A DNA stretch of 64,000 bases. Source: Saururus chinensis (lineage: Eukaryota; Streptophyta; Magnoliopsida; Piperales; Saururaceae). The stretch covers positions 19,470,563 to 19,534,562 of the forward strand of contig CP141145.1 in NCBI GenBank assembly GCA_035235625.1, read 5' to 3'. Below the pieces are notes generated by a model. It was not told where the DNA came from, ran no database searches, and saw only the letters and a program-made list of their open reading frames with translations. The position numbers and the translations under genes were made by a program. This document shows, in pieces, positions 23,911-56,911 of the stretch (positions within the stretch are counted from its first letter, which is position 1; each line of letters opens with the position of its first letter).

Positions 23911-26900
23911 GATCTCTACTTTTGGCTGTTTCTTGTCAAAATACTACATATTTGAAAATTAAAATAAATTACAACTCTTGACATAATGCATTGACTTTCA
24001 AATTCTTCAAAATAACTTGACACTACAAAGACTCATCATAAGTTTAATAAACTTAAACGCATTTATTTCGAATTGATCTAGAAAAGTCTTGTATAACCCT
24101 GTACGTATACTACACACTTAAAATCAAATTAATTTGCATAACATTGTTCAATTAATTACAAAGATAAGCACTTTGATTTTTATTAATGACTTCTCCTCCT
24201 TTTTGACATAAATAGACAAAAAGTTAATGCAATAATTATTAAATACTCATTAAACCAAAATCAAGTTATAATCATTACTTAAAGACATGAAAATAAATAA
24301 AACCATCACATGTCCATCACATATCCTGCAATAAAATTAGTTTCAAGTGTACATCCCATCATTAAATGAAACATAAATGAACATAAAAAGTTTTTTAACA
24401 AAGGAATACTTGAAAGGTGATACAAAATAAATAAAAACATCAACCAATCGCTACATCATCATCACCACTCTGCTCCCCCTCACTATCTGCTCATGGAAAG
24501 TAAGATCTGATCAAACAATCAAGGTTTGTAAACGTATTGAACATAACATCCTAAAATGAACTAAACTCTCCCATAGTCACTAATTGATCTAAATCATCTG
24601 TAGGTGTTGGTGGCTTAAATGTTGCATCTACTACCCCTACAACATCCTACTGCTCATGATCATCACCCCGATGGTGAGACGACATCATACAAACCACTCC
24701 AAGATCAATAAGATGCATCCCATTGCATTGCTATGAAAATCCAACACAAGATGAAAATCCATTATCTTCACCCCAATGGTCAGACATCAATCGATCCTAC
24801 TGCAGTCTCTAAAGGAATATAAACTAGACACCCCTCAGGTCTAATCAGTCTAACCGTGTCTAACCCACTCCTAGATGATATAGGGTCATCAGTGCCTAAC
24901 TTGACTATCTTTTGCTTCTTTGTTCTTCCCATCTAGATTAATTGACACATAAAGGAACCTAGGGCTAAGCATGAACTAGGAATAAAGATATAACAATAAT
25001 AAGTGCCTAGAAGTTAAAACTGCATTAAAATGCATGCCAAAAATTCAAATTTTGAATTAAAAAAATTAAAAAATTTTCATGTCCAATTGACTCCAAATTT
25101 GAACCTAAGGTGGATCTTAATGAGTAAATCAAACATTTTCTACTTAACCAACAACCAATTTTGACACTAAATATTCAATATTGAAAATTTCCCAATTCAG
25201 TGAACAAACTTGAAACTGCCATGAATTTTTCAAAAAATCTTGAGTTTTAATGGAATGGAATGCAAGAAAGTTTAACCAAAGCTAGATTATCCTATTTCTA
25301 ACATTCCTATAGGTTCATATCAAACTAAAATCATTGAAACAACTAAAAACTTAAAATTTTGGTTTTCGAGCATACCTTGGTCACCAAAAAATTTTGGATT
25401 ATGATGACGAAAATCAGTTGTTTTTTTTCCCAAAATGTACTCAAATCACCTCTATTCTCTCCAACGAACACTTAGAGAGGATTTCAAGAGAAATAGGGTG
25501 AATCAAGTAAGTGTTCGCTGAAAACCCACAACTGGTGTTCGATTGCTTTGATTGATTGTTCTTGCAATAATTTGGTTTTTTCATTTCTAAAAATAATAAA
25601 AAGTTGACAAATTCCAAAACAATTCCGATAAAGAAAATATTTCACGGCATTTCCCATTAAAACAAAAATTTTCTGACACTCAAAACTCAAATTAAAAATT
25701 AAACACTAAAAAATAGCAAAATTGAGCTATTTTTGACGATGTTGTAATCAATTTTCTTTTAATCTAAGTACATCCATAGATTATGTTCATTAGTACCTTA
25801 CCTTAGATCATTAACACCATTAGTATATGATTGTCAATTTTATTATCTTCTTTTTATCACATTAATCTCTTTTATTAGTTTTGAATAAAAAATGCTAATG
25901 TAGTACTCATCTCTTGTCTCTTTTAATCATGAATCTCATAAGATCACTCTCAACCAAATTGAGACAAATTTGTTCAGACCCTATTAATGACTAAATTTCA
26001 TTTTTTAACTATCTTTAGCTTGAATCTATAAACATGATTTTTCTAAAAAATAAAAATAATCAAAAAACTTATAATCAACTTGCCCCTCCCTTTTTCTGAG
26101 TTATGATATTTTTTCTCAATTCTTTTTTTAGGGCTTGGTTGTTTTAAATCCTCTCTACTTACATCATTATTTTTATTTATTTTTTATTTCTTTTTCATTC
26201 ATTTTTCTTAATGTCAAGTGGATAGGAGCTTCACACTAGCCTAGGCTAGCCAAAGTAGGTAGCCCTTCCCCATCATCTTTATAAGGACAATTTTATTATC
26301 TAAAGAGATGTTAAAGTACATAAGGCTCATAAGCTTTGAAGTACATGCATGAAATTTTCATTTCTTTGAATCTAAATAGAAATCTAACTAAAGTTCCTCT
26401 AATTTGATCACCTAGATTCCACTAAAGTCCAAATGCTAAGTCAACTTATGTTTAAAAATTATCTCCTGGTGTTCATAATTAAAAGTGACTTGAGTCTAAA
26501 TAGGATGTGTGCAAGTTTTAAAAATCAGAGAATTGCAACATAAAGCAAAAGAAAATAAAAGTAATTTTCACTCTCCTTGGTGTATCCTTATATTAGTTAA
26601 GGTATATTTGACCAATAATCGTGATACTTTTTATTATTAAAAGAAAATTAATCTCTAAATATCTCAAGAGCTTAACTTTATAAAAAAGACAAAGCCAATT
26701 GCAAAACTAAGCAAAAGCTACACTAATTTTTTTATTTATTTATCATATTCTAATTTTTTTGTTTCTTTTTCAATTCAAAACTTTTGAATTAAAAAACCGT
26801 GTAGAAATAGAGAAACTGCAATGAAACTAAAAAACATGAATGTTCCAATGATAAAAAGAATTGAACCATGTACACAATTCAAAATCTCTTACTTAGAGAT

Positions 26901-27776
26901 ATAAGACTCCTTAACCTTGCCTAGCCATCCAATCCTAAGGCAACTTAAGATAAACTTTCTTACTTTTTTTAATTGATCATACATGTTAACTATGTTTGGA
27001 ATTTTAGTGTAATATTAAAAACATGTCTCTTCTCCGCTCATTATAATATTTTTAAACTCTAGATTCAACATTTGTAGCCTACACACCTTCACAACCTTAG
27101 TTGTCTCACTATATTTTACTAATTTTTTCCAAGCAACTTTAGCAGACACACAATTAAAGATCAACCTATATTGTAATTTTTCTACTACATTGAATAATTC
27201 AATTAGGGCTTTATTATTTTGATTAGCAAGTCTATTCTCACACTCATCCCATTCAGTTTCATATTTTAAATTGAGTTCCCATCCTTATCTTTTGTCATTA
27301 GAGGACTCTAGCCTTTAACAACTACTTTCTAGACATTTCCTTTCACACACTTGTATAATATAAATTCTCTAATTATATTTTTCTAATATGAGAAATTTTG
27401 TCCATCAAACAAGGGAAGTCTATTCATTGGATCTCCTAGGTCCCCATGTTCATTCATTGAGTTATTTAACCCAACCATTGAATTTAATCAACAAAAACAA
27501 CCCATGCACCACAAATTAAGCACTTAAATCAAGGAAACTTATGAGAGAAGCAACTAGCTATCTAGGCACACAAATCAGCAAGTCTAATCAAGTATTTATA
27601 AAAGAATAACGATTAAACTTAAGTAAAATTCATATTTCAAACCTCAATAAAAGAAATCTAGCGCAAGAAATCAAATTATGGAAATTTAGGCAAGGTTATG
27701 GAGCAATATCATGGCAAATTTGATTGATACCATGTCAAAAAATCAAATTTTAAATAAATAAACCTTAGCTACCACT
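23911..27776 (-). other. Element C internal region, no clear gene
   Basis: AT-rich. The minus strand near 24180-24215 has AAAAAGGAGGAGAAGTC, a polypurine motif. A short start with MGRTKKQKIVKLG lies near 24930. The segment from 26525 rightward is part of the tandem duplication and recurs from 39118. No recognisable enzyme domain seen. Confidence 0.45.
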
Positions 27777-29068
27777 TGTGAGTTTAATATCTGTCTAATT
27801 ACCTAGCATATCACTAGTTGCCCCTAGTCTAATTATCAAAGATAAATACTATGAGTTCTAAGCTCTTTGACCATAATTTCTACACCTAGTAGAATTAAAC
27901 TAATATTCTCTCCAATCTCATTCATAATATATTATTAATCATCATTCAATCACCATCATTAAGTCCACAAATGAACACAATAATTTAAGTGAAAAACCCT
28001 AACATGGGTAAAGAACTTCAGTAATTTTAAAGGAACTAAATCAATGTACTACAAACTAAAACTTTATATTAACAGAAACAAACCACTAACCTTATTTATA
28101 CTCTAACACAAGCTCCTTTTGTTTAGATCAATATTTTTTATCTTCAAGTCTTCTCCCTTAAGCACTTAAAAATTTATCCTCCTTACTTTGTCTTCATCTC
28201 TTCTAGTCTTCAACAAGCACCTCTTGTTGTATTGGCTTTGGCCTTGTAAAATAATCAATATCTACTTGAAGATATGCTGCAACTCCTTTAAAAACTCTGT
28301 GTTTTAATTCTTTTAGTTGTGGATTGTCTTCAATTCACCATGGATCTTCAATTGAAAGCTTCATGTGAATTCTCATTTGGAAAAAAATATGCAAAGATAT
28401 AAACTTTTTTTCTCTAATCTCCTCTAGGTTTTTTCCCCCTAAAATTTCATGATTTTGGAACCCTTATATAGTTCCTTAAGTTAGTTTAGAACTTATATAT
28501 AAAGAGGGAATGAAATTGAAATTGAAATATCGTAATTAGGATAACTGTACTTGAAGTGATCGATCCTTCCTAATAGAAATCGATCATTCACTATTTATTT
28601 TGTGCTCGATACTTTAAGCGATCGATCGATTTATGAGAGTGATCGATCAATTTACGAGAGCGATTGATCAATAAATCAGCTTCAATTGCATAAGGCTGAA
28701 CTAAGGTGAGGTTGATCATTTAGTTCTTTATTAGATGCAGAGATTGATTGTTCTACCTGATAATTTACTATTTTGTCCTTTTTACCCTAAATCTTTTTGA
28801 AACCATAGAAATTACATTTGAAACTTCATGAAGTGATTTTTTTATGCAAATATGATCTAAATAAGCTTAAAATATCTCTAACATTCTTCAGTCTTTTGTC
28901 TTGATCAATAAGAAGAAGTGTGCTCCTATTTTTTAAGTCTGTCATTTCTAAATACCAAAATAACCTCAAATTATATTCTAAGACTCAATACATGCACAAG
29001 TTTTCTTGACATAATTTTGACAAAGAAATCTACCAATAAACGTAACATATGACTCATACGTTCTTACA
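27777..29068 (-). repeat. Element C, 5' LTR
   Basis: Partner of 22648-23910; a duplicate lies at 40289-41408. Contains GATCGATC clusters at about 28555-28680 that are missing from the 40289-41408 copy. Confidence 0.8.
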
Positions 29069-29073
29069 TTGTT

Positions 29074-29537
29074 TGATCTTTAACAAAGAAATGAGGGGGA
29101 TGAAACTCAAAGTAATAGCTATTATCTATAGTAAACTAAGATACATAGAGCTAGTTCTTTTGAATATTAGGCGCATGTAGGACTTGAGGAAGACAAAAAT
29201 CAGAATTCTCATGAGACTAATTAAGAGAACCAATGTGATGAATACTCAGAACCACACCATTACCAACACGAATATGATCAGGTCTAAAGTAGTTGACCAG
29301 ATTGTTGAGAGATTATATATCACTAGTGTCATGATGTGTAGCACCTAGATTGGGTTACTAGTCCAAATTGGACTGGAGGGCAACAGCGGTTGTGGTATTA
29401 GCCTAAGGAGAAGATGGGTTTGATTGAAAATTGTGGTCAAAACAAAAATGCACTTTCAGAGTGTTATGACCATATTTATTGCAAATTTGGCATTGAGGTC
29501 TAGGGCAAGACTAAGCACCAAAATGCTGACAAGAAGC
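29074..29537 (-). pseudogene. copia-2 zinc knuckle and protease segment
   Basis: The minus strand gives CQICNKYGHNTLK (CxxCxxxGHxxxxC-type knuckle with the last Cys changed here), a GATHHDTSDIQSLNN protease region and VGNGVVLSIHHIGS, the usual order after copia gag. It is isolated between element C and CACTA-2. Stops are present. Confidence 0.85.
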
Positions 29538-32500
29538 CAAAATGACTACTAGCATCGCTAGTAGTCATAGAAGTGTTGCTAATGACTATTAAGGATGCTT
29601 AAAAGGTATCGCTAAATGCATCGCAAAAAGTACCGTCAATACTACTCATTAGCAATGCATAAAAAAGCGTCCTAACAGCAATACGATTAGCAACATTTTG
29701 TTATGTGTTGATAAATGCATATTTTTTGCAACACTTTATATTTACATTGCTAATAGTAAATTGTGCTAATAATATATTATTAGCCACACTTATACAACAT
29801 CAATAATATAAAATAATATTTCAAAAAATAAAAAACCTTATTAGTGACATTTGTTTGTGTGCTGCTAATAAGAAAAAAATAATAATGTTATTAGCGACAC
29901 TTTTGAAAGTGTCACTAATAAGAAAAATAATAATCCTTATTAGCAAGGCTTTTAAAGCATTGTTAATAAGAAAAATAATAAAAATTATAAGTGTCACTAA
30001 TAATAAATTAATTATAAAAATGAAAAGAAATCCTGCCAGTGGCAGGATGAGGGGAGGACACTAGAGTTCAGCACTCCTCCTTCAGCAACAATGGAAGGGG
30101 AAAGGGACTCTGGCTGGAGGAGCTGCAGCCCCTCCTTCGACTAGAGGAAGATGAGGAGGGGGAGAGAGGGGAGAGCGGTGAAGGAGCGTAGAGGGCAGAG
30201 CACTGAAATACGGTGGTGGAGCTGGATCCGGTGCAAGCTGGGGGGTGGGGGGCAGGGGTTGGGGAGAGGGAGGAGAACGTGAAAGCAAATGAGGGGAGCA
30301 GGGGGGACCGGGTGGTGAGTCAGAATCTAGCAGGGGAGCCAGACTCCAGCATCTAGAGGCCCCTCCTCCGACAGCAATGGCGGAGAGGGGGGAGCAAGGG
30401 AAAATAGAGGAGGGGAAGGGGAATAAGGGTGATCGTGGGGGAGAGAGGAGGGGCGGGGAGACAAATTCTGGTGGGGGAGATAGACTCTTGCACCTAGAGC
30501 CCCCTCCTCTAGTGGCTACAAAGGGTGTGGGTGGGAGGAGGGAGGGAAATAGAGGAGAGGACAGAGGGAGGGGGGACTGAGGAGATAGGGGAGTGAGGAG
30601 GGGGAGCCATACTTTAGAACCCGGAGCCCCTCCTCTGGCATTTGCAGTGGAGAAGGGGGGGGAAGGGGAAAATATAGGGTGGGAGCAAGGGAAAGTGGGG
30701 CAGGGAGAATGGGGCATTAGAATTTGGCACCCCTCCTCCCGCTGGGAGGAGAGGCGAGGGGGAAGGAGGGGACATGGCATACATGCAGTAAGGCGGCTAC
30801 AGATGAGCTGCTGGGGGTAGAGACACAATGGAGGGAAGAGTAGGGGAGTAGAAGGAAGGGTAATTCTAAGCACAGTGCTAGCAAAATTTCACCCAGCCAT
30901 TCTGCAAAATTTTGTGTGCATTGAAAGCTATTTGTGACATTTATCAAGCATCACAAATGTCATTTTTTGTAACATTTAGATGTAAACATCGCAATTAGTG
31001 ACCTTATTAGCTATATTTACTTCTAAATGTCACAAATAATTAAAGAGAGACAGAAGAGGGAGAGAGAGAAAGAGAGAGGAGAGAGAAGAGAGAGGAGAGA
31101 GAAGAAAGTGGCAGAGAAGATAGAGAGAATATAGACACTGATAGAGAAGAGAGAGTTAAGAGAGAGAAGAGAGAATGTGAGAAGAGTATTTGTGACACTT
31201 TTATTTAAGAGTCACAATTACTAGTTATTTAAAAAAGACTACTTGTGACATTCTTTGAGAAGCGTCACTAAATGCATGTTCATGTAAAAAAATAACGCAA
31301 CTATTTTTGACATTTCTTAATGTTTTGCAAATAGTTGTCTAGTTGTGATACTTTTTAAAAAACATCGCAAATAGTTGTCCATTCGCAATGTTTCTCATGA
31401 AGCATCTCTAATAATATGTTTTAAAAATTTAAATTAAAACCTTCTATCTCCTCTCCCTTGTCTTCTCTCTCCTCTCTCCTTTCTCTCATCTCTCTCCTCT
31501 CTCCCCTCTCTCCTCTCTTTGTCTCTCCTTTTCTTTACTCTTTCTCTTTTTCTCTCTCTCCTCTCTCCCGCGCTCCTCTATCTCTAATCTCTCTAAACAA
31601 ACTCTCTCTCTTCTCTGCCATTGTTTGCATTCTCTCTCTACCTTCAATCTCTCTCCACTCTCTCTCTTCTCTTATCTCTCTCCTCTCTCTCCGTCTTCTC
31701 TCTCTCATCTCTCTCTTCTCTCTCTCAATTTTTTCATATGTATTTATTAAATATTATTTTAAAATAAAATTTTGATGTATTTGCTATGCATGCACTTATG
31801 AGTAGTAAATACGTTATATATTTGGGACACATTAGTGCATGTCTCACAAATATTTCATATTTTTATTTTTTAAAATTAACTTAATTCTCTCTCTTCTCCC
31901 TCTTCTCTATCTTCTATCTCTCTTCTCTCTTTTCTATGTGAAAAAATATCTCTCTATCTTCTTTGTCATTGTTTGTATTCTCTCTCTATCTTCTCTCATG
32001 CCTCTATCTCTCTTGTCTTGCTCTCTTCTCTATCTCTTCTTTGCCTCTCTTCTTTGTCTACTCTCTTTTTCTCCTCTCTCTCCCTTTCTCTTCTCTTTTT
32101 CTCTTTCTCTCCTCTCGCTCCCTCTCTCTTCTCTTTTTCTCCTCTCTCCCTTTCTCTTCTCTTTTTCTCTTTCTCTCCTCTCACTCCCTCTCTCTTCTCT
32201 TTTTCTCTTTCTCTCCCTCCCTCCCTCTCTATCCCTATCTTTCTTTCATGTGGATCAGCATGAGCCTCGGCTCTGAGGAAGATATGGGAGAAATTAGGGG
32301 AATTTAATTAATTAATTAATTAGTATATTTTACATATTAAAATAATAAATATATAATAAAATTAAATGTATTTGCAATGCTTTTTTGAAAGCATCGAAAA
32401 GAGTGGTACCATTTGTAATGCTTTAAAAAAATCGTTGCAAATAGTACTAAATTGTTTAAAAAAATTATTTTATTTGTAACATTTTCAAAAAATTATCGTA

Positions 32501-32821
32501 AATAGTTTTAAAATTTTTATTTTATTTGTGATGCTTTTTATCAAGTGTCATTAATAGTTGTTCTATTTGCAATGATTTAAAAAAGGATAAATAGTAATTT
32601 TTTTTAAAAAAATCTATTTTGTTTGCGACATTTCCGAAAAGCATTAAGAATACTATAAACTTTTTTAAAAAAAATTATTTTATTTGTATCATTTTTTAAA
32701 GTGTCACAAATAGTTTTTTTTGCGACACTTACAAAAGCATCACAAAAAGTAATTTTTAGCCATGATTTTTTTTATTGTGACATTAATAAGAGCATCGCAA
32801 ATAGTTTTCTTTATTGTAGTG
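29538..32821. mobile_element. CACTA-2: related CACTA element in copia-2, one end eroded, AGC target duplication
   Basis: The right end reads TTATTGTAGTG (32821), a CACTA terminus. At the left end, CA is followed directly by AAATGACTACTAGC, so about nine terminal bases are lost. AGC at 29535-29537 and 32822-32824 remain as target duplication. Interior order matches CACTA-1: subterminal AGTGTCACTAAT motifs, GC-rich block (30045-30860), GA tract (31043-31190), CT tracts (31440-31745 and 31880-32250). No transposase. Confidence 0.88.
30045..30860. repeat. GC-rich core block of CACTA-2
   Basis: Three to four degenerate units of about 130-150 bp, each containing CCCCTCCTC followed by a GGAGAGGGGGGA-type run. 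The long Pro/Leu/Ser ORF on the minus strand is compositional. Confidence 0.75.
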
Positions 32822-33695
32822 AGCATTGTTGTTAGAGGAGGCATTGTTAGTTGAGTCAAACGGGAAGCAGCCACCCCTATTACCTCTGCAGCCTCGAAAG
32901 TTGTTGCCATGACCATTGTCGCATGTAGCTGTGAGTGCTGAGATTCGCCATTGGGGTTAATTAACAAATCTGTGGCAGCCAAAGATGCAATGACTTCATA
33001 ATGCATATCATGAGCAAAAAGAAGGTTGTGCAGGCCATCCAAATCGAATGCAGCCAGTATCAGTCTCAATAGATGTAACAGAGGTGTCATACCCACTACC
33101 AAGTACATTGAGGATGAATAGGAGAAAATTTTCATTGGTGATTGGCTGGCCTATGGTTGCAAGGGCATCGGCAAATGACATGCTTCATCAATGTAGTCAT
33201 TGACTGAAAGTGTACCCTTGTTGAGTGCGTGCAGCTTAGCACGGAGACAAAGGACTCCTGCTCTAGAAGAGGAAGCATAAAGCTTATCCAGGTGCAGCCA
33301 GACATCGCTTGAGGTGGTGAGGCCATAAACATGACTCAACTTGCTGGTGAGAGAGACGACATCAACCAACTAAGGAGGACTTGATCACGAGTCTCCCATG
33401 TGGCATATTTGTGATTGTCAATGAGACGAGATGGGTTTTGTGGATCCGGTATAAAGGTAGGCGGCGGTGGAATGGAACCATCAATATGGCCAAGCAGCCG
33501 ATGGCTGCGAATAATCAAAGGAACTAAGATTGGCAGATTGCCATATATGGTAAGTAGTTGGAGCATATAAGTTTGAGAGAAACAAAGTGGTTGATATTGT
33601 TGATGGGATGTGGGGTTGGGAGAGCACACTAGGGGCGTCAGATTGGTGGAAGAGGAAGCTGCCATTGTTTCCTCTAAAAGGGCTCCCATGCCATA
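32822..33695 (-). pseudogene. copia-2 gag (first part)
   Basis: The frame starts at MAASSSTNLTPLV near 33663, next to a primer-site-like TGGCATGGGAGCCC. It includes a copia gag domain (LDKLYASSSRAGVL-like) and a Gly/Asn/Arg-rich end near 32870 (NFRGRG-type). Split into several frames. The rest of gag continues beyond CACTA-2 at 29537. Confidence 0.8.
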
Positions 33696-33948
33696 TGTCT
33701 CGTTAATTTTTTATTCATTTTACAACTCTTTAAATAGAGTAATGTGATTACAACCAATTTCTTACGTAGACTGGCTAGAAATGTGTACAATCATTAATAT
33801 ACACAATGAGGAAGTTCAGAGAGAGTGAGGCATTTAAGGAGACTTGTGTGAGGAGTTTTTTACATAGTCCAGTCTGTTGGACGCTTGTGAACAGTCTTTG
33901 ACAGGGTCAAGACTGTTGGTTAATTGGGTAAGCCGTAGTGGTCTATAT
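33696..33948 (-). repeat. copia-2 5' LTR, beside protease gene 1
   Basis: Begins TGTCTCGTTAATTTT and ends near GTAGTGGTCTATA. Matches 19606-19829 and, through the duplication, 46521-46767. It ends 160 bp ahead of the TATA box of protease gene 1 and points away from that gene. Confidence 0.8.
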
Positions 33949-34107
33949 CAGTTTGGGTTAAAATTGACAGCAAGTGCGACGAACCCGACATTCTGAACTG
34001 AAATTATGTACTAATTTGCATGAAACCCATACCTTGGCACATCTTAATCAGCATCTTTGTCACAGAAAGTTGGACGTTACTTTCGGGTCCTTCCCATCTC
34101 TGAGGGC

Positions 34108-34115
34108 TATATAAA
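34108..34115 (+). promoter_or_regulatory. TATA box of protease gene 1
   Basis: TATATAAA, 77 bp ahead of the start codon, in a stretch (GGCTATATAAACCTG) conserved in gene 2. Upstream GGACGTTAC near 34073 corresponds to GGACGTCAC in gene 2, a possible bZIP (ACGT-core) site that differs by one base. Confidence 0.8.
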
Positions 34116-34184
34116 CCTGTATCAGATTGTGCATTTATCACTGCCAATTTGATTCAAATTTCCCAAATTTCGGAAAGCACCCAT

Positions 34185-35867
34185 ATGGCTTTGTTGAAGC
34201 AATTCACCTTCATGGCCTTATTCATCATGGGGTTCTGGGCCACCTGCGTCATGGCCCGGACTCTGCATAGCACAGCCATGCGGGTCAGGCATGAGCAGTG
34301 GATGTCCCAGCATGGGCGAGTGTACCCTGATGATATTGAAAAGGAGAGAAGATTTAACATATTCCGGAAGAACGTTGAGTTCATTGAATCATTCAACAAG
34401 GAAGGTGGCAAGTCCTACAAGCTGGCTGTTAATGAGTTTGCAGACCTTAACGATGAGGAATTTAAGGCCTCACGCACTGGGTTGAAGCCCTCTATGCACA
34501 AAGCAGGAAAGGCGTATCCTTTCAAGTACGAGAATGTGACTGCAGCCCCAAGCATGGATTGGAGAAACATGGGTGCTGTCACCCCCATCAAGAACCAAGG
34601 CCGCTGTGGTAAGCATTTGATTTATCTTATAAGTACTCCTTCCGTATCATATTTGGGTTTTCAAAATTAATTAAAATTACTTTATTTCAAAAAGCAGATG
34701 GAGTTATTAACGTGGGATGGATGGAGTATTAGATATTTAAAATGTGAACATATTACAATGTACTTAATAACTGCTAGCAAAAAACAAAACTCATAATGAC
34801 TGTCTAATGTATAGTTGTTGCCTGTAACCCTACCAGGGGACCCGTTGGAAAGGGTTTTTTATCTTTTAAGTTCTGTGAAAGTTCTTCCTTACGTATATGT
34901 TGGAGTCTTAGGATCCAACAGATTTTAATCCAATGGTGCACATTGCTTAGAGGAGTAAGGGTTTGAATCACCCTCCGCCACTGTTAATATGTATCATTGG
35001 ATCCCAATCAGACGGCTCCTGACTCAATCAGTACTTTAGCGTGATTTCATATGATTATACAAAAAATTACCGACTAGTTTAATTATAAAGATGTTAAACT
35101 AGCCGGTGTGCATTTCATAAGATTTGTGAAAAGTGAAAGTATTTGTCCAGTCGCTTAGTCTGTTTGTTGGTCTTATTTATTTCTGTTCTGATAGGTAAAT
35201 GTTGTTAAGTCCGCATGGATATGCGTCTATAGTTTACTATAATGATCATCATTCTTGAAGACGATTAACCATGTCACGAACAGGGTCTTGCTGGGCGTTT
35301 TCTGCCGTTGCAGCCATGGAAGGAGTGATCAAGCTGAGAACAGGGAAGTTGATATCTTTATCTGAGCAGGAGCTAGTAGACTGTGACATTCATGGAGAGG
35401 ACAAAGGCTGCCATGGTGGTTGGCTTGACAGCGCATTCGACTTTATCCGAGACAATGGGGGGCTCGCAACCGAAGCAGACTATCCGTACTTGGGAACTGA
35501 TGGCAGCTGCAAGACCCGAAAACCAGCGGCCAAGATCACAGGCCACGAAAATGTGCCGGCTAAGAGCGAGGAGGCACTGTTAAAGGCTGTTGCAAACCAA
35601 CCTGTGTCTGTTGCAATTGAAGCTACTGGCTCAGCCTTCCGATTCTACTCCAGTGGGATCTTTACTGGGACGTGTGGAACTAATCTGAACCATGGTGTCA
35701 CTGCAGTTGGCTATGGCACTGCTGATGATGGGACCAAATACTGGCTGGTGAAGAATTCATGGGGCACTAACTGGGGGGAAGGTGGGTATGTAAGGATGCA
35801 GAGGGATGTGGATGCCTCAGAAGGACTTTGTGGCATTGCCATGCTGGCTTCCTACCCCACAGCTTAG
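34185..35867 (+). CDS. Papain-family cysteine protease 1 (SAG12/SAG39-like), two exons
   Basis: Exons 34185-34608 and 35284-35867, with a 675-bp GT-AG phase-1 intron, give 335 residues, the usual size for plant C1A proteases. An upstream ATG at 34149 is in frame, but the Met at 34185 starts a signal peptide (MALLKQFTF...CVMA, about 24 residues). The propeptide holds an ERFNIN-type helix ([20 protein letters not shown]). The mature enzyme should begin near residue 121 (APSMDW). Active-site residues are Gln138, Cys144 (GSCWAF), His278 ([10 protein letters not shown]) and Asn299 (VKNSWG). It should be a secreted or vacuolar endopeptidase; relatives act in senescence and recycling of protein. An Asn precedes His278, where gene 2 and most relatives have Asp. 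The frame is intact and likely functional. Confidence 0.95.
34609..35283 (+). other. Intron of protease gene 1
   Basis: Starts GTAAGCATTTG and ends CGAACAG. It splits the Gly codon just before the catalytic Ser-Cys-Trp. About 220 bp shorter than the intron of gene 2, mainly because a stretch matching about 47895-48110 is absent. Confidence 0.93.
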
Positions 35868-41408: not shown

Positions 41409-41875
41409 TTCTTTGCTCTTTAACAAAAAAATTAGAGGGATGAAACTCAAAGTAACAACTTTTATCTCTAGTAAACTAAGATATGGAGAGCATGTTCTTT
41501 TGAATATCAGGCACACATACGACTTGAGGAAGACGAAAAGAAGAATTTCCATGGCACGAATTAAGAGAACGAGTATGATGAATACTCAAATCCGCACCAT
41601 CACCAACCCAAATATGATCAGTTCCAGAGTAGTTGACCACATTGTTGAGAGATTGTATATCACTAGCACCATGATGTGTAGCACTTAAATCAGGTTACCA
41701 GTCCAAATCGAATTGGACAGTAGTAGAGGTTGTCACATTTTCTTGAGGAGAAGATGGGTTGATTGAAGACAATGGTCAAAATGGAAGTGCACTTCAGAGT
41801 GTTATAGCCATATTTATTGCAAATTGGGCATTGAGGTCTAGGGCAATATTGAGCACCAAAGTGCAGAGCAAAAGC
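41409..41875 (-). pseudogene. copia-2 zinc knuckle and protease segment, duplicate
   Basis: The minus strand reads CPICNKYGYNTLKCTS, with both CxxC and the final Cys preserved but His changed to Tyr, and an ATHHGASDIQSLNN protease region with a stop just before it. Counterpart of 29074-29537. Confidence 0.85.
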
Positions 41876-44800
41876 CAATACAAAAAAAGGACTACTAGCG
41901 ACATTTTTAAGTGTCACTAATAGGCATAAGACTTTTGCTAATTGCAATTAGGACACTTAAAAGGTATTGCTAAATGCATCACCAAAAGTAACGTCGATAC
42001 TGATCATTAGTGATGAATAAAAAAGTGTCCTAATAGCTATACTATTAGTGATATTTTGTTATGCATTGCAAAATGAATATTTTTTGAGATGCTTTATATT
42101 TATGTCACTAATAGTAAATTGTGTTTATAATATATTATTAGCCATGATCTATACAGCATCTAAAATATATAAAATATTTCCAAAAAATAAAAAAAACTAT
42201 TAGTGACATTTGTTTTTGTGTTGCTAATAAGAAAAACAAAAAATTGTATTAGTGACGATTTTGAAAGAGACAATAATAAAAAATAAAAATAAAATTTTTT
42301 ATTTGCAACACTATTCAAAGCATTGCAAATAAGGAGAAATAATAAAAATTATAGGCCTAGTTAATAAAAAAAATTACAAAAAAGAAAAGAAATCCTACCA
42401 GAGGTAGGATAAGGGGAGGGGCACTGTAGTTCGGGGGAAAAGGACTCTAGTCGGAGGAGCCAGAGCCCCCCCTCCGACTGGAGGAAGCTGAGGAGGGGGA
42501 GCAAGAATGGGATGTAGGGGAGTGCTAAAATCTGGTGGCGGAGCGGGAACCAACGTCGGCCTAGGGGAGGGGGTTGGGATAGGGAGGAGAAAGGCAAAAA
42601 ACTAGGGGAGCACAGGGGACCAAGTGAGGGGTGGTCAGAATCTTGCGGGGGAGCCGTACTCGAGCACCTAGAGGTCCTTCTTCTGGTGGCTATAGCGGAG
42701 AGGGGGGAGCACGAGAAAACAGAGGAGTGGAGTAGGGGGAAGAAGGGGAGGCAAGGGAATGAGGTTGAGCGGGCAAGAGGGAGGAGGGGGTGGAGAGACA
42801 AATTCTGGTAGGGGAGTCGGACTTCTACACTTGGAACCCCCTCCTCTAGAGGCTGCAATGCAGGGGGGGGGGGGTAGAAAACTGAGGAGGAGAGCATGGG
42901 GAGGGGGGACCAGGGAGATAGGGGGCGCATGGGGGAGGAGGGAGGAGCCAGAACTTGGCAGGGGAGCTGGTCTCCAGAACCTCAAGCCCCCTCCTCTGTT
43001 GTTTGCAGTGGAGAGGAGGGAGAAGGGGAAAATAGAGGATGGTAGCAACTAAAAGGGGGGCGGGCAGAGTGGGGCATCAAAATTTGGCGCCCTTCCTCCC
43101 ACCAAGAGGAGAGGAGAGGAGAGGAGAGGAGGAAGGCGGAGGCATGGTGGATAAGTGGTGAGGACTGATGTGGACGAGCGGTTAGAGGTAGAACCACAAT
43201 GGGCGGAGGGGTAGGGGTTGGAAGGAAGGGGGATTTCAAGCGCAGCATAGGAAAAATTTCACCTGGCAATGCTGCAAAATTTTGCCTACATTGAAAAATT
43301 ATTTGCGACGCTTATCAAGCATTACAAATGTCATTATTTGTGACATTTAGATGTAAACGTCGCAATTAGTGACCTTATTAGTGACATTTATTTCAAAACG
43401 TCACAAATAATTAAGAGGAGAGAGAGAAAAAAAAGAGGGAAAGAGAAGAGAAATAAAAAGAAGAGAGAGAGAAAGATAAAAGAGAGGATAGAGAAGATAA
43501 TGATGGAGAAGATAGAGAAAGAATACACATAGACAAAGGAGCGAGAGTTAGAGAGAGAAGAGCGAGAGTGAGAAGAGTATTTGCAACACTTTTACTTAAG
43601 AAAATTGCAATTACTAGTGAGTTAAAAAAACTACTTGTGACATTTTTTGAGAAGTGTCGCTAAATGTGTGTCCATTTTAAAATAATGAAAACTATTTTCG
43701 ATGTCTCTTAATGTGTCGCAAAGAGTTGTCTATTGTGATACTTTCTAAGAAGCATTGCAAATAGTTGTCCATTTGCAACGTTTTGCTTGAAGTGTCTGAT
43801 AATATTTTAAAATTAAATTAAAACCTTATCTCTCCTCTCTCTTCTCTCTTCTCTTTTCTCTCCCTCCTCTCCCTCCTCTCTTTTCTTGATCGGCACTTTC
43901 TCCCCTATCTTCTCTCTCTCTCTCCCATCTCTCTACTCTCTTTGTCTCTCTCTTCTCTCTCCTATCTCCCATCTCTTTCTCTCTCTCCTCTCTCCCACAC
44001 TCCTCTCTCTAAAAAATCTCTCTCTTTCTTCTCTGTCATTGTTTATATTATCTCTATCGTCAAACTCTCTCCACTCTCTCTCTTCTCTTCTCTCCCCTCT
44101 CTCTCCTCTCCCTAATCTATCTCCTCACTCTCTTCTCTCTCTCATTTTTTCATATTTATTTATCAAATATTATCTACATATTATTTTAAAATAAAATTTT
44201 GACGTATTTGCGATGCTTGCACCTATGTGTAGAAAATACCTTATGTATTTGCAACGCATAGGGGCATGTCTCGCAAGTACTTTAATTTTTTTATATTTTT
44301 AAAATTAACTAAAGTCTCTCTCTTCTCTTTCCTCTCTATCTTATGTCTCTCTTCTCTCTCTTTTCTATCTCAAAAAAATCTCTCTCTACTATGTCATTGT
44401 CTGTATTCTCTATCTATCATCTGTCTCCCACTTCTCCTATGCCTCTCTTTCCTCTCTCCTCTCTCCTCTCTGTCATTGCTCTCTCTTCTCTCTCTTTTGC
44501 CCGTCTCACTCATCTCTGTCTTCTCTCTCTCTCCCCTCTATCTCTTCACTTCTCTCTCCCTATCTCCCTCTCTCTTCTCTTCTCTCTCTCCCCTATCTTA
44601 CTCTCTCTTCTCTCTCTTATTTTTTCATATTGATTTATGAAATATTATTTATAAATTATTTTAAAATAAAATTTTAGCATATTTGCTATGCATGCACCTA
44701 TGCGTAGCAAATACATTGTGTATTTGTGACACATAAGTGCATATCTCGCAAATACTTTAATTTTTTATTTTTTAAAATTAACTTAACTCTTTCTCTCCCC

Positions 44801-45692
44801 TCTCTCTCCTATTTATCTTATGTCTCTCTTCTCTCTCTTTTTAATCTCTTCTCTCCCTTTTTAATGTAAAAAAATCTATCTCTTGTATGTATTCTCTCCG
44901 TGTCTTCTATGTCTCTCCTCTCTACTTTCTCTTCTTCTCTGTATTCTCTCTTTCTCTATCTTCTCTTTCTTTCTCTATCTTCTCTCTCCCTTCTCTCTCT
45001 TAGCTTCTCTGTCCCTATCTCCCTCTCTCTCTTCTATCTCTCACTCCCCATCTCCCTCTCTCCTCTAGCTCTCTCTTTCTCTCTCCCCTCCCTTCCCTCT
45101 CTCCCACCCACTCTCCCTATTTCTCTCTCTCTCTCTCTCTCACGAACATCAACATAAGCCTCAGCTCTGAGGAGAGGGGAGAAACTATTTGAATTTTATT
45201 TTATTTATTTATTTATTATATTTTATTTATAAAATACTAAATACATAATAAAATTAAAGTATTACAAATAGTACTAAATTTTTTAAAAAAACTTATTGTA
45301 TTTGTGATACTTTCAAAAAAGTGTAACAAAAAGTGCTAAATTTTGTTTTAAAAAAACTTTATTTTATTTGTGAAGCTTTTTATCATGTGTCATACTTGTT
45401 CTATTTGCAATGATTTAAAAAAATCATAAATAGTAAAAAACATTTAAAACTTATTATATTTGCAAAGCATTTTTGAAAGTGTTCCAAATAGTAATACTAT
45501 TTGCGACACTTACAAAAAAAGTTAAAAATATTACAAATATTTTAAAACAATATTTTATTTATGATATTTTTTCAAAGTGTCGCAAATTATTTTTTTGCAA
45601 CACTTACAAAAGCATCACCAAAAATAATTTTTAGTGATAATTTTTGTTGCGACATAAACATAAACTCGCTAATAATTTTTTTTGTTGTAGTG
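41876..45692. mobile_element. CACTA-3: duplicate of CACTA-2, AGC target duplication
   Basis: The left end is CAATACAAAAAAAGG (CACTA mutated to CAATA) at 41876. The right end TTTGTTGTAGTG at 45692 is a good terminus. AGC lies at 41873-41875 and 45693-45695. Inside are a GC-rich block (42395-43240), a GA tract (43412-43580) and three CT tracts (43825-44150, 44310-44635, 44785-45145), against two in CACTA-2. No transposase. Confidence 0.88.
43825..45145. repeat. CT-rich tracts of CACTA-3
   Basis: Three polypyrimidine blocks separated by AT-rich linkers that share TATTTATCAAATATTAT and a CATGTCTCGCAA(G/A)TA motif, so they look like a roughly 450-bp higher-order repeat. The Ser/Leu ORFs in them are artefacts of composition. 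Confidence 0.8.
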
Positions 45693-46520
45693 AGCATTGT
45701 CGTTAGAGGAAGCATTGTTGGTTGAGTTGGACTGGAAGTGGCCACCCCTATTATCTCCGCGTCCTCGAAAGTTGTTGTCACGACCATTGTCATGATGTAG
45801 CTGTGAGGAATGATAGTGGGTGCAAGTGCTGAGATTGGCCATTGGGGTTACCAAATCTGTGGCCGCCCAAGATGTAATGGCTTCATAATGCATATCAAGA
45901 GAAGGAAGAAGGTTGCGTAAGCCAAATCCAAATCAATACGGTCAGTATTAATCTCAATAGATGTAACAAAGGTGTCATACCCACTAGCTATCAAGTTCAT
46001 TTAGGATGACTAGGATAAAATTTTCGTTGGTAATTTGCTGGCCCGTGGCTGCAAGAGCATCGGCGAATGCCTTGGCTTCTTAATGAAGTCCTTGACGGAA
46101 AGAGTACCCTTCTTGAGGGCGTCTGGCTGAGCACGGAAACGAACGACTCATGCTCTAGAAGAGGAAGCTGGTGAAACAACTTGCTGGTGAGAGACAATAT
46201 CAACCAACTAAGGACTCACTAGTCTCCCGTGTGGCATATTTGGGATTGTCAATAAGCCGAGATAGGTTCTGTAGATCCAGTATAAAAGGTAGGCGGCGGT
46301 GGAACGGAAGCATGAACATGGCCAAGCAGCCGGTGGCAGTGAAGATCGGAAGGAACTGAGATCGCCATAGTGAATAGTTGGAGTATTCAAGTTTGAGAGA
46401 AACAAAGTGGCTGATATTGTTGATGGGTTGTGAGTTGTGGGTTGGGAGAGTAGGCATAGCCATTGTTGTGGTGGAAGAGGAAGCTGCCATTGTTTCCTCT
46501 AAAAGGGCTCACATACCATA
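45693..46520 (-). pseudogene. copia-2 gag, duplicate
   Basis: The minus strand starts MAASSSTTTMAMPTLPTH near 46490, then FVSLKLEYSNYSLWRSQFL (Retrotran_gag-type domain), ending RDNNFRGRGDNRGGHF near 45760. Frames are broken. A good primer-site-like TATGGTATGTGAGCCC lies between gag and LTR. Confidence 0.85.
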
Positions 46521-46767
46521 TGTCTCCTTAATTTTCTATTTATCAACTCTGTCAATAGAGTAATATGATTAGAACCAATTTCTTAAATGGACTGGCTAGA
46601 TATGTGTATAATCAGTATTATATAGATTGAGGATGTTCAGAGAGTGAGGTACTTAAGGAGACATGTATGAGGAGCCTTTTACGTAGTCCAATCTGTTGGA
46701 CGCTTGTGAACAGACTTTAACAGAGTCAAGATTGTTGGATGATTGGGTAAGCCGTAGTGGTCTATAA
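46521..46767 (-). repeat. copia-2 5' LTR, duplicate, beside protease gene 2
   Basis: Starts TGTCTCCTTAATTTTC and ends near GTGGTCTATAA, 190 bp ahead of the gene 2 TATA box. Just outside it, about 34 bp (AACGGTCAAAGTGC and following) is absent from copy 1. Confidence 0.8.
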
Positions 46768-46956
46768 ACGGTCAAAGTGCTTTCTCTAATGTATAAAGCG
46801 GTTCGGGTTAAAATTGACAGCAAGTGCGAAGGACCCGGCATTCTGAACTGAAACTATGTAGTATTTTGCATGAACCCATACTTTGACACATCTTAATCAG
46901 CATCTTTGTCACAGAATGTTGGACGTCACTTTCGGGTCCTTCGCATCTCTGAGAGC

Positions 46957-46964
46957 TATATAAA
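46957..46964 (+). promoter_or_regulatory. TATA box of protease gene 2
   Basis: TATATAAA, 91 bp ahead of the start codon; 14 bp of extra leader lies between TATA and ATG compared with gene 1. GGACGTCACT upstream at 46921 contains a complete GACGTCAC ACGT-core site. Confidence 0.8.
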
Positions 46965-47047
46965 CCTGGATCAGATTGTGCATTTATCACTGCTAATCTG
47001 ATTCAAATTTCCCAAAGTTCGGAAAGAAGTGTATTCGAAACACCCAC

Positions 47048-48949
47048 ATGGCTTTGTTAAAGCAATTCACCTTCGTGGCCTTACTCATCATTGGGGTCTG
47101 GGCCACCTGCGTCATGGCCGGAATTCCACATGGCACAGCCATGCGGGTCATGTTTGAGCAGTGGATGGCCCAGTATGGGCGAGTGTACCCTAATGATAAT
47201 GAAAAGGAGAGAAGATTGAAGATTTTCCAGAACAACGTTGAGTTTATTGAATCATTCAACAAGGAAGGTGGCAAGTCCTACAAGCTGGCTGTAAATGAGT
47301 TTGCAGACCTTACCCATGAGGAATTTAAGGCCTCACGCAATGGGTTTAAGCCCTCTAAGCTCAAAGCAGGAAAGGCATATCCTTTCAAGTACGAGAATGT
47401 GACTGCAGCCCCAAGCATGGATTGGAGAAACATGGGTGCTGTCACCCCGGTCAAGGACCAAGGCGAGTGTGGTAAGCAATTGATTTATCGTATAAGTTTT
47501 CCGTACCATATTTGGTTTTTCAAAATTAATTAAAATTAATTTATTTTGTGAAAGTAGATGGAGTTATTAAGGTGGGATAGAAGGAGTATTAGATATTTTA
47601 AATGTGAACATACTACAATGTACTAATAACTGCTAGGGAAAAAAATACTCATAATGACTGCCTAATGTATATTTGTTGCCTGTAACCCTACCAGGGGACC
47701 CGTTGGAAAGGGTTTCTTATCTTCTATGTTTTGTAAAAGTTCTTCTTTATAAATATGTTGAGTCTTAGGAGCCGGGGCTTCAAGTGCCAACAGATTTTAA
47801 TCCAATGGTGTACATTGCTTGGGCGAGTACGGGTTTGGATCACCCTCGGGCTTTATTAATGTGTGTCATTGGATCCCAATAAGATGGCTCAGGATGCCCT
47901 GACTTATACTAATATAAGTGAGACCAAACCCATATTAACTTTTTGTAGATATGTTAGTGTATATATTAATACGTATGCAATCAATGATACTTAATTAAGT
48001 ACTCAATAATTGAAAAATACTTAGTTTGCTGGTTTAGTCCAACTGGATTGGCATATGGGCTCCATAACAGAATGATTGGATCTTCTTATGCCCTATGTAA
48101 ATTTTAAGTTAGTACTTTAGCATGACTTCATATGATTATACGAAAAAATTATCTATCGAGTTTAATTATAAAGACGTTAAACTAGCCGGTTTGCATTTCA
48201 TAAGATTCGTGAAAAGTGAAACTATTTGTCCAGTCGTTTAGTCTGTTGTTGGTTTTATTTCTTTTCTGTTCTGATAAGTAAATGTTGTAAGTCCGCATGG
48301 ATATGCATCTATAGTTTACTATAATGAACATCATTCTTGAAGACAATTAACCATGTCACGAACAGGGAGTTGCTGGGCGTTTTCTGCCGTTGCGGCCATG
48401 GAAGGAGTGATCAAGCTGAGAACAGGAAACTTGATTTCTTTATCTGAGCAGGAGCTCGTAGACTGTGACATTCACGGAGTGAACAAAGGATGCAAGGGAG
48501 GTTTCTTTGACAGCGCATTCGACTTTATCCGAGACAATGGGGGGCTCGCAACCGAAGCAAACTATCCGTACGTGGGAACTGATGGCAGCTGTAAGACCAA
48601 AAAACCAGCGGCCAAGATCACAGGCCACGAAAATGTGCCGGCTAAGAGCGAGGAGGCACTGTTGAAGGCTGTTGCAAACCAACCTGTGTCTGTTACAATT
48701 GACTCTAGCAGCTCAGCCTTCCAATTCTACTCCAGTGGGATCTTTACTGGGACGTGTGGAACTAACCTGGACCATGCTGTCACTGCGGTGGGCTATGGCA
48801 CTGCTGATGATGGGACCAAATACTGGCTGGTGAAGAATTCATGGGGCACTAACTGGGGGGAATATGGGTATATAAGGATGCAGAGGGATGTGGATGCCTC
48901 AGAAGGACTTTGTGGCATTGCCATGCAGGCTTCCTACCCCACAGCTTAG
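47048..48949 (+). CDS. Papain-family cysteine protease 2 (SAG12/SAG39-like), two exons
   Basis: Exons 47048-47471 and 48366-48949, with an 894-bp GT-AG phase-1 intron at the same position as in gene 1, give 335 residues. It has a signal peptide ([18 protein letters not shown]...), the I29 propeptide with [20 protein letters not shown] (the Phe of the ERFNIN pattern is Leu), a mature start near residue 121, and Gln138, Cys144 (GSCWAF), His278 ([10 protein letters not shown]) and Asn299 (VKNSWG). All residues needed for catalysis are present. It is a tandem paralogue of the gene at 34185-35867, made by the segmental duplication. Differences cluster in the prodomain and around the substrate-binding loops ([26 protein letters not shown]). 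Likely functional; expression cannot be judged from sequence. Confidence 0.95.
47472..48365 (+). other. Intron of protease gene 2
   Basis: Starts GTAAGCAATTG and ends CGAACAG. Contains about 215 bp (about 47895-48110) without counterpart in gene 1; no transposon ends seen around it, so it may be ancestral sequence deleted from gene 1. Confidence 0.92.
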
Positions 48950-51659
48950 CCACAGGCTTTTGTGGCATGTAGATGTTGTAGTCTCCAAAGTTTGTTTGCA
49001 TGTTCTTATTCTCAATAATATTGAACCGGCCGGCATGCGTAAATTAAGATACCTGTTGAATGGAACAGCTTAGCTGCTTGCTGTTCTCATACATAGACAC
49101 CGATGCAACATTCTTAATGTTACCTAAATCAGTTGTTACTCTTCGTGGGATAATGTCACATGTTCTCTACAGTAATAAGTATTACAGCATTTTGGATTCT
49201 TAACCAGAGATGAGATTTGTCTCTAATGCATCCAAGATGGAAGGGAACTCACAAGTCCAAATGGCAGAAAAATTAGTGGGCCCCCTGACTTGAAGCTTCT
49301 GTTTCAATCCCTATCGGTACCACTATGTGTGGAACCCACAATTAAAGGATCCGTGAAGCTTTGCATGTGGCATCACTAGGGGAACAAATATGTGGTGTAA
49401 ATATGACTCCAAGAATTTTATTGTCAAAAAACAAAAAATCTTGGTGGAGGCGTATTTACCTCCATATGACCCTTAGCTCTGCTGCCATGTTAGTTAAGAC
49501 TGTTTTCTTAGATCTTAAGCTATTAGGAAATGGACCAGAAATATATTTATTTATACTTTTAAAAAAATAACAAAGACAAATCCTAGCCTTAAAAGGACCT
49601 TTTTTTAGAGGAGTCACAATTTCATCAGAAGAAGAAGTAAAAATTTAGGTCAGCAACTGGTAATAGTTGATTATTAAGTAGGAGGGACCAAGGTTATGGA
49701 GGAGGAATCAGGTTTACAAACCAGATTTTAAGGAATTCAAAAGAGAATCTCTCGTTGAAAGAAAATGTCATCAACATAGCTCGAATCTTCAAGTAGAAAA
49801 GATGTTGTAGCGTATACTTGTCAGGAGTCTCTTTTTCGTGCAATGCAATGTAAATTAGGAATCATAGAAAGTTCCATGAATACAATTTATTTCTTGAACC
49901 CAACCACTTGCAGTTGAGCCTTACGGACGGTTCGATAAGCAATTGGAAATTGGAACTAAGATAATACAGGGAAGTAGCTGCTATTTTCATTAAAGAAACA
50001 AAATTCTATGAAGATAAGAGTAAAAGCTAATAATAGGAAGGCAAGTTTATTGTCAATAGTCTCAAACCTTAATGGATTTAATCTTTTCACCTTCCAAAAA
50101 AGGCTTATCATTATATTAAACGCTTGTTTCCTTTTTTTCTTTGGAAAGAGTGATATCTTCTTTTAGAAAAATAATCTTGCTAGGGTAAAAGTGTGTAAAC
50201 CAATTAAAAAAGGCGGTTTGGGCATTAGAAGCAATAAGGATTGTAATGCAAGCCTAGCTAAACTTTTGGTATGGTTCTAAATAGTACGGACTCCCTATGG
50301 TGTAAATAGGTTTATGGAGTTTATTTTGACAATCAATGCATTTGTGTTTCAAATCCATGTTCTTGTACTTATGCATGGAAAACTATATTTATGTTATGGG
50401 TATATCTCTTCTTCTACCAAATGCTCTTTCAAATCTTTATGAACTTTGTTCAAACCCAACTTTCCTATGGTGGAGTACACACAAACATTGAGTAATCTAA
50501 CAATGAGCCTAGAGTAAGACATGCAAGGAAGAACGCTCCAGTGCACTTTTGCGTCAGTAACACTGAAGCTAACTTGTGCTAGTGCATGCATTGTCGATCT
50601 CATGGAGGAAGAACTCCCATGCTCAGCTTACGTTGGGCTCATTGTTAGTGAGGAGTGTAAAAAAATACTTCCCTTATACTTGTTTGGCTCTGAATAATGA
50701 AGTTTTTACTTTGGACAATTTAACTAAAGGGCATCCAACTTGCAAAAATTATTTCAAACATGTATGTCCTTTGTAGTTACAATGAGAAATGCTCTTTTCT
50801 ATATTGGTGTGGAAAATCATTTTAACTGGAGGCCTATTTGGATGGGAAAACAAAATAGTTTAAAGGGCCTTTAAACCGTAACACTCCTCCTTAAGAAAAG
50901 CTCCCTCTCTGATATGATATTTTACACTAGTAATGTAACTCAAAAGCATTTGCCTTTAAAATTAGAAGTGGTATTCAAAGGTGACCTAAATGTCATATCA
51001 AAATGTGTTGGCTTATTCATTTGTCAAGGTTAATCACTACCTTGCCATTCCCCCTGGGCCCCTCTTCAATGTAAACATTACTTTTGTTTTGAATGGTAGC
51101 AATATGCATTTTTTTAGGATAAGATGATAGAAGCTTGAATTCCTTTATTTACCATTTGCCAAGTTTGTAAAGCCTAAATTATTATGTTACCTAGTTTTGT
51201 TTGAGAAAGCAATGTCAGTATTAATGTGCATTTTTTTTTCATTGTATGTTGAAATACTAAATCCGATAAAATTCAAAACGTGACCACATTCTTTGCCAAG
51301 TTTGAAAAATAAATATCATACACAACACACACTTCCAATTTAGAATAGATAAATTTATAGAGTGTATTGATTTAGACAAAAAAGTGAAGTTTTAATTTTA
51401 TTTCATACGGACTGATTGTTGCCATCTCGCTTATTGTTTGGTTTGAATATCAATTACTTTGAAACTACAGTGTTCACTTATTGCTCACTAGAACTGACTT
51501 GCACGTATTATGTTAGCTCATCATCAGATCAATGATCACTTGTTACTTGGTAGTATTGTCCAAGCATCATAGCATTTGGTTATTAATCCCTATGGTTGTG
51601 CAATCCATAATTTGACTAATTTGAGTTCAACTCAACATCTAATTGAACACAAGTCTTGC
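48950..51659. other. 3' flank of protease gene 2, non-coding
   Basis: Matches 35868-38117 apart from several indels, the largest about 400 bp at 49648-50050 and another at about 49265-49400. No gene recognised. Confidence 0.6.
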
Positions 51660-52140
51660 AACATACCCTAAACCTATATATAGGCCTAATGAGAAGATGA
51701 TTTTGCATAGTGAGGAGTTGAAGGCCATCTGGGATAGCCATCTCTTGGCCAATTCTAATGTGTCATGGAAGGAGGTTTCCAAGTTTATTATTGATATTGA
51801 AGGGGGCATGGTTAAAATGATTTGGGAGTATGACAGACACTTCTTTACATTATTAATTGAGGACAACCACTAGATATTTTTAATCCTTGGTTTAAAGAGG
51901 TGATTTATTTTCATCATAGACCCATTATACTCTAGAAAGAAGTTGGGAGATTACCTTTCATTGTTAAAACTTTGAAAGATTACATTTCTATGTATAATTT
52001 TAAGCTAGGTTGGATGAACATTTTGCTAGAAGAATTTGTGGTTGTTGAGGTCACAAGACGTCCACAACAAACAAACGATAACGAAAATTTGTTTATGTGT
52101 GCTTGTATATGGAGAATTTGGCATAAGGGCATTAGTTGAC
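51660..52140 (+). pseudogene. Remnant of a ULP1-like (C48) SUMO peptidase ORF, copy 2
   Basis: Counterpart of 38118-38578. It reads HSEELKAIWDSHLLANSNV, then GGMVKMIWEYDRHFF, then EDNH followed by TAG (51871-51873) at the same place as in copy 1, then RRPQQTNDNEN. The shared stop means it was already dead before the duplication. Confidence 0.5.
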
Positions 52141-52668
52141 TTTCACACCATTTGATATAAGAAAGCACAAGAAGAGGCTAACATATATTCTATTGAAATA
52201 AGAGATTTTATCCCAAATTTGGTGTCTTATTGGTAGTATTTTAATTTTCTTCACAAATCAATGTTTTGTTGTTCTATTGTGTAAATAATATTAAGTTTTT
52301 GTTAAGTTTGTCATAAGAAATCCCATTTTCATATATTTATGCATAATTACATAAGAAATATTGAGATGTAATTTAGTTACTGACATGAGTATTTTGAAAT
52401 GCATAATTGTGTTTATTAGTGATATAATTTAATCATTATTTTAACCAGATGATCACAACTATCAAATGTCTATTTTAGAATGCCAAAAATGAAGGTATCA
52501 AGTTTGTTCATGAGATATGACACCCATAATTTTATGAGGAATTTCTTCATATCCATTCATGATTTTTCTCATTTTTTGTTTTTTACCTTACATGGGAGGT
52601 CTTGTGTCATTTGAACCAACAAATCTCTATAATAAACATTAGATTTTTGAGTGATGAACTTAAGGGAA

Positions 52669-54524: not shown

Positions 54525-54850
54525 AACCTGCATGGATGTATCTCTAACATACATATTCCCACATGCATTATATCAAAATCAACCTGCATGGATGTATCTC
54601 TAACATACATATTCCCACATGCATTCCATCAAATAAACTTACATGGATGTATCTCTAACATACATATTCCCACATGCATTATATCATAATCAACCTGCAT
54701 GGATGTATCTCTAACATACATATTCTCACATGCATTTCATCAAATAAACCTGCATAGATGTATCTCTAACATACATATTCTCACATGCATTTCATCAAAT
54801 AAACCTGCATGGATGTATCTCTAACATACATATTCCATCAAGCATAATAT
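54525..54850. repeat. Minisatellite of about 56 bp, six units, in LTR-A2
   Basis: Six consecutive units built on ACCTGCATGGATGTATCTC, AACATACATATTC and CACATGCATT. The equivalent place in LTR-A1 (about 18368-18425) has a single unit. Expansion therefore happened in this copy or its source. Confidence 0.9.
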
Positions 54851-56903: not shown

Positions 56904-56911
56904 CTTTTATA
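56904..56911 (-). promoter_or_regulatory. TATA box candidate of LTR-A2
   Basis: TATAAAAG on the minus strand, at the position equivalent to 14681-14688 in LTR-A1. Confidence 0.5.

Follow-up and report, generated by a model that had tools for sequence, protein, structure and literature searches.

A 12.6-kb tandem duplication with a two-base junction at a protease locus of Saururus chinensis

In Saururus chinensis, a 12.6-kb stretch of DNA that holds one papain-family protease gene together with old repeats is present twice, head to tail, and we consider, with a probability of roughly 0.8, that it was duplicated by a non-homologous join. The window, meaning the whole stretch of DNA analysed (64,000 nucleotides of contig CP141145.1, G000:C6:19470563-19534562), comes from a source genome of 516.46 Mb in 11 contigs, and positions above 64,000 or below 1 are window-style coordinates extended along the same contig. 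The two copies, units A1 and A2, lie in the first of three larger tandem blocks called A, B and C. The structure of the duplication and its junction can be seen directly, as can the continuous flanks in two paralogous blocks. A non-homologous join is favoured because the switch from one parental sequence to the other is seamless, the flanks in B and C are continuous, and the breakpoints are internal to repeats of different families.

The duplicated units and their junction

Self-BLAST matched 26.5-39.1 kb to 39.1-52.7 kb in a colinear, head-to-tail arrangement, with local ends at 26523/39116 and 39117/52668, and a global alignment of A1 and A2 spans both copies fully (11,991 aligned columns, 84.7% identity, largest indel 376 bp). 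The first copy measures 12.6 kb and the second 13.6 kb. A preliminary description of this DNA had reported a head-to-tail repeat, which both comparisons confirm, and its coordinates and junction letters were correct within 2 bp. It had also stated that the sequence repeats exactly and exactly once. The second copy is indeed colinear with the first, but identity is ~85% and the indels reach 376 bp, and the single repetition holds inside the window but not beyond it, as the contig has more units farther downstream. One new junction between two copies in head-to-tail order characterises a tandem direct duplication by non-homologous join, and A1/A2 is a real and old tandem duplication, ordinary and of a known kind. 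Impure CT-rich tracts occur within both units (31440-32230 and 43800-45140), and their length differs between the copies.

In an ungapped comparison with both parents, the junction followed the right parent up to 39117, with 35/40 identities before the switch and 8/40 after, and the left parent from 39116, with 14/40 identities before the switch and 34/40 after. The bases common to both parents are AA and there is no filler, which agrees with the preliminary description, where AA was named as all that the two parental breakpoints have in common. Blocks B and C both run uninterrupted through the left breakpoint (TTTTAAAAATTAGA), and block B does the same at the right breakpoint (AACTTAAGAGAAGTA), where block C is continuous but more diverged, with a gap of ~70 columns just before. 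The junction in A would represent the derived state relative to the flanks, because the unrearranged flanks are seen twice elsewhere, in B and in C. The junction letters had also raised the idea of a Helitron or other mobile element starting at TCAGAG, based on what we take to be a Helitron end; this was ruled out, as B and C cross 26523 without a boundary.

An overlap of at least 2 bp arises in 17.8% of 200,000 random joins in this window (P 0.178), and the AA is therefore no evidence for a microhomology pathway. The join may have been made by classical end joining, microhomology-mediated joining or replication template switching. The earlier proposal of end joining or replication-based repair over unequal crossing-over is thus upheld in part: the two-base non-homologous junction, the continuity of B and C and the lack of breakpoint homology speak for it, but the AA singles out no pathway.

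Breakpoint repeats, order of events and possible origins

Both breakpoints lie in dispersed repeats and, judged by their sequences, the two belong to different, unrelated families. Among the matches listed outside the array, 38 of 39 for family 1 span the left breakpoint (40 scored of 1,424 candidates), and 35 of 36 for family 2 span the right one (40 scored of 308 candidates), 33 of these 36 beginning at ~52509-52522 (query 510-523). The match of A1 to the family 2 query ends exactly at the breakpoint (query 669 = 52668). The junction is ~455 bp inside the right edge of the family 1 repeat and ~150 bp inside the left edge of the family 2 repeat. A comparison of the 2 kb around each breakpoint showed no homology at the breakpoints themselves; the best match was 29 bp long (86%, E 8e-5) at other positions, and the rest were weak. 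With thresholds of at least 60 bp and E 1e-3, direct repeats were found neither between the flanks of the A units nor between those of the unit in B. The A flanks have only inverted repeats in common (six matches, the long ones pairing 18.4-19.1 kb with 53.9-54.5 kb and 14.3-16.8 kb with 54.9-57.3 kb), and at these thresholds no repeat of either orientation was found between the B flanks.

It is likely that a break or a replication-fork switch occurred inside the dispersed repeat at the right end of the stretch and that this end was joined, with 0-2 bp of matching sequence, to a site at the left end of that stretch, within the other, unrelated dispersed repeat. The partners of the join would probably have been sister chromatids or homologues. 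The join would have followed the split of blocks A and B or been near it in time. Further tandem duplications at the same site gave the larger blocks, which are A, B and C, and another took place later inside C.

The p-distances over 6,178 columns were 0.126 for A1-A2, 0.126 for A1-B, 0.122 for A2-B, 0.133 for A1-C, 0.131 for A2-C and 0.125 for B-C, so that by this measure A1, A2, B and C are almost equidistant, nearly a star. By these near-equal distances, the duplication is old and falls near the block duplications in time. The column filter removed 150 of 1,764 gene-segment columns in which C was apparently misaligned, and the results before removal agree. The outgroup C is itself nearly equidistant, and the approximately unbiased (AU) tests therefore read an unrooted split. 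With all columns, the AU values were 0.837 for A1+A2, 0.174 for A2+B and 0.006 for A1+B, and in the left half 0.975, 0.039 and 0.008, respectively. Judging from these comparisons, the most likely order is a block split followed soon after by the A1/A2 duplication, with a rough absolute age, on assumed rates, of perhaps a few to about fifteen million years. No obvious stretch of conversion between A1 and A2 was detected by eye in a sliding view of the distances. The preliminary description had stated that the duplication created the protease pair. This is still the likeliest reading (A1 and A2 as sisters, AU 0.84 versus 0.17 for A2+B), but the pair does not stand alone: B, C1 and C2 carry the same gene, and the distances A1-A2, A1-B and A2-B are nearly equal.

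Several points weigh against a non-homologous join that followed the block split. In the right half of the alignment, the AU values were 0.211 for A1+A2, 0.849 for A2+B and 0.045 for A1+B. The support from the left half needs care because the raw A1-A2 distance there (0.169) exceeds A1-B (0.160) and A2-B (0.162), B-C being the smallest (0.144). A1 lacks two segments that A2 and B have, i2 (142 bp) and i3 (376 bp), and block C, being without the region, does not polarise them. As to the junction itself, it is possible that a later deletion removed a longer original homology, and a slightly longer, imperfect overlap may have decayed at a divergence of ~15%. The order of events could be the reverse, with the 12.6-kb duplication predating the block duplication, so that each of the blocks A and B had two units at first and crossing-over between the units later removed one from B; the continuous flanks of B and C would in that case result from the loss of one unit. 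We regard this as unlikely. The slight preference of the right half for A2+B (AU 0.85) and the segments i2 and i3 common to A2 and B argue for it, but after such a loss the left part of B should group with A1, which was rejected (AU 0.008), and A2+B was rejected in the left half as well (AU 0.039). In addition, i2 and i3 can equally be deletions in A1, where the BLAST pieces flanking them overlap by 3 and 5 bp, and inverted-repeat ends were looked for in i3 and not found. Locus D, a related sequence on the minus strand (C6:18793295), was of no use for polarising i2 and i3, as it loses similarity near the equivalent of 49025. The A2 intron has a third indel of 209 bp, for which the alignment to B is weak (66%). 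B, C1 and C2 share with A1 a 157-bp stretch (69-71%) that A2 lacks, which looks like a loss from A2.

Other routes to a tandem copy were also weighed. With both breakpoints in dispersed repeats and the region rich in them, unequal crossing-over between dispersed repeats (non-allelic homologous recombination) would be an obvious candidate, but the repeats are of different families without homology at the breakpoints, the repeats shared by the A flanks are all inverted and have no counterpart between the B flanks, the junction is not a homologous hybrid, and a later deletion of the crossover repeat would be required; we find it very improbable. Alternative (reversed-ends) transposition of DNA transposons makes tandem direct duplications in maize, according to the available part of that work (PMC3744419), and there are repeats at both breakpoints here. 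The junction is, however, internal to both repeats, with neither a repeat end nor a transposon terminus with target-site duplication at it, and this sequence disfavours transposition to the point that we give it hardly any weight. An artefact of assembly or of haplotypes is unlikely because the copies are ~15% apart over 12 kb, with indels on both sides, and hold two intact genes; the clean junction, the intact reading frames and the recurrence of such units in blocks B and C likewise argue against a misassembly, the chance of which we consider negligible. It is also conceivable, though quite doubtful, that the whole nested array, with 12.6-kb repeats in blocks of ~52-78 kb, arose in one short burst, perhaps through a single replication-based rearrangement in which the template was switched several times from one unrelated repeat to another. 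This would explain the equidistance of A1, A2, B and C, because there would have been a single episode and not separate events over time.

Protease genes and the larger array

The duplicated genes are predicted to encode papain-family cysteine proteases, presumably of the family named C1A. Intact two-exon models were obtained for A1, A2 and B (335 amino acids each) and for C2 (333). In the C1 copy (C6:19627426-19628947), exon 1 is interrupted by two premature stops, while the sister copy C2, at a distance of 12.5 kb, is intact. The domain scan covered the A1 protein and found PF00112 (Peptidase_C1, E 7.7e-80) and PF08246 (I29 prodomain, E 4.2e-21); A2, B, C1 and C2 were assigned through full-length alignment. 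Among solved chains, the best match of A1 was Triticain alpha. The motifs NQG/DQG, CWAFS, NxxHxVTAVGY and NSWG are visible in A1 and A2, and we take them to hold the catalytic Gln, Cys, His and Asn. The A1 and A2 proteins are identical at 288/335 residues and differ at 47. Nonsynonymous (dN) and synonymous (dS) divergence were 0.075 and 0.103, a ratio of 0.73 by NG86 and 0.82 by YN00, which would be compatible with relaxed or shifting constraint.

Blocks A, B and C are adjacent and in the same orientation, and they contain five protease gene copies in all, four of them intact. Blocks B and C together (64392-195101, C6:19534954-19665663) are homologous to 9.2-64.4 kb of the window and hold three more protease copies. 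Left-flank sequences start 54.9 and 55.8 kb apart between successive blocks. Block B, ~55 kb downstream, has one unit (80998-100593). In block C there are two subunits with a gene, C1 and C2, besides a remnant, C3; they do not share the boundaries of A1/A2, C2 starting near the equivalent of 27152 and C3 near that of 28642. The Kimura two-parameter (K2P) distance between the genes is 0.028 for C1-C2 versus 0.092 for A1-A2, by which the C1/C2 duplication is the younger one. That the inner duplication of C could be the same event as A1/A2 was ruled out by its other boundaries and by the closer C1 and C2 copies. Where block A meets block B, one parental sequence gives way to the other over some tens of bases in the pairwise alignments, and there is either an overlap of ~3 bp or a short filler.

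Block A also has a long inverted repeat pair, 83% identical, at 14261-16751 and 54856-57335, and a tandem repeat at 54525-54836 with a 55-bp unit in ~5.6 copies (92% matches). Relatives of the protease gene were seen elsewhere in the genome: an inverted relative of the C-type unit, ~91% identical to C2, 0.7 Mb upstream (C6:18793295-18793894, minus strand); an exon-2 match with 81% protein identity on the same strand, ~0.4 Mb downstream of A2 (C6:19915359-19915946); a relic of exon 1 upstream of the window (C6:19455417-19455846), 77% identical to A1 34103-34538; and a second cluster of six exon-2 matches with 79-81% protein identity (C11:14099359-14202784). Coordinates of the main features are collected in Table 1.

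Table 1. Positions of the duplicated units, junction, breakpoints, genes, repeats and blocks in window coordinates
Feature	Position	Strand or orientation	Basis and remarks
Unit A1 (first copy, 12,595 bp)	26523..39117	+	End-to-end alignment with A2; local BLAST ends
Unit A2 (second copy, 13,553 bp)	39116..52668	+	Alignment and BLAST; overlaps A1 by the shared AA
Duplication junction AAGGGAA/TCAGAGAATT	39111..39127	+	Shared AA at 39116-39117, filler absent; compared without gaps to each parent and aligned to blocks B and C
Left parental breakpoint	26522..26526		Continuous in blocks B and C; alignment with B and C
Right parental breakpoint	52666..52670		Continuous in blocks B and C; alignment, block C with a gap of ~70 columns just before
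Protease gene A1, exon 1	34185..34608	+	Gene model, 335 aa, GT-AG intron of 675 bp
Protease gene A1, exon 2	35284..35867	+	Gene model; spliced protein matches Peptidase_C1 and Inhibitor_I29
Protease gene A2, exon 1	47048..47471	+	Gene model, 335 aa, GT-AG intron of 894 bp
Protease gene A2, exon 2	48366..48949	+	Gene model
Dispersed repeat family 1, contains left breakpoint	26000..26978		Right edge ~26961-26983, from five matches whose query extended to 27500; left edge before 26000 (query start)
Dispersed repeat family 2, contains right breakpoint	52518..53193		Left edge near 52518; query ended at 53200
Truncated family 2 fragment, end of A1, ~150 bp	38967..39117		Coordinate transfer; start approximate
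Truncated family 1 fragment, start of A2	39116..39525		Coordinate transfer; end approximate
Block A	~9,244 to 64,382	Same as B and C	Span ~55 kb
Block B	64,392 to 116,254	Same as A and C	Span ~52 kb
Block C	~117,370 to 195,101	Same as A and B	Span ~78 kb

Comparison with known systems

Duplication junctions have been read at the base level before in plants. In the Co-2 resistance cluster of common bean, end joining was assigned if no similarity continued past the boundary, as described in the available part of the report (PMC6102362). As in that case, a plant gene cluster has here been enlarged by duplications and a junction read at the base level. The bean cluster, by the same part of the report (PMC6102362), consists of resistance genes in a subtelomere, and both end joining and homologous recombination were reported; in contrast, the present locus has protease genes, one fully read junction without long homology, and a position 19.5 Mb into a 45.9-Mb contig. 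The EPSPS array of Kochia is likewise a tandem gene array associated with mobile elements, and the accessible text proposes a microhomology-mediated join for its shorter repeat (PMC6808082). The main amplification there was modelled, in the same text, as unequal crossing-over between copies of one mobile element (PMC6808082), whereas the repeats at the breakpoints here are unrelated. Among breakpoints of copy-number variants in Drosophila, microhomology of at least 2 bp (41%) and blunt joins (35%) were common classes in the sections available (PMC4056370), although that set, from another kingdom, comprises deletions and insertions with few tandem duplications (2/50 polarised insertions; PMC4056370). 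The papain-family cysteine protease families of soybean, fig and grapevine represent the same kind of gene, and the available portions of those papers contain the term tandem duplication.

Non-homologous joins with zero to a few matching bases are thus a common class of copy-number breakpoint, and as far as tested nothing here falls outside the known kind; the result is a single example and introduces no new mechanism. The case is well preserved, and an old plant gene duplication can be read here at the base level because the paralogous blocks keep both of the sequences from before the join. It shows that, in repeat-rich DNA, a gene copy can be added through a non-homologous join and not through crossing-over between the repeats.

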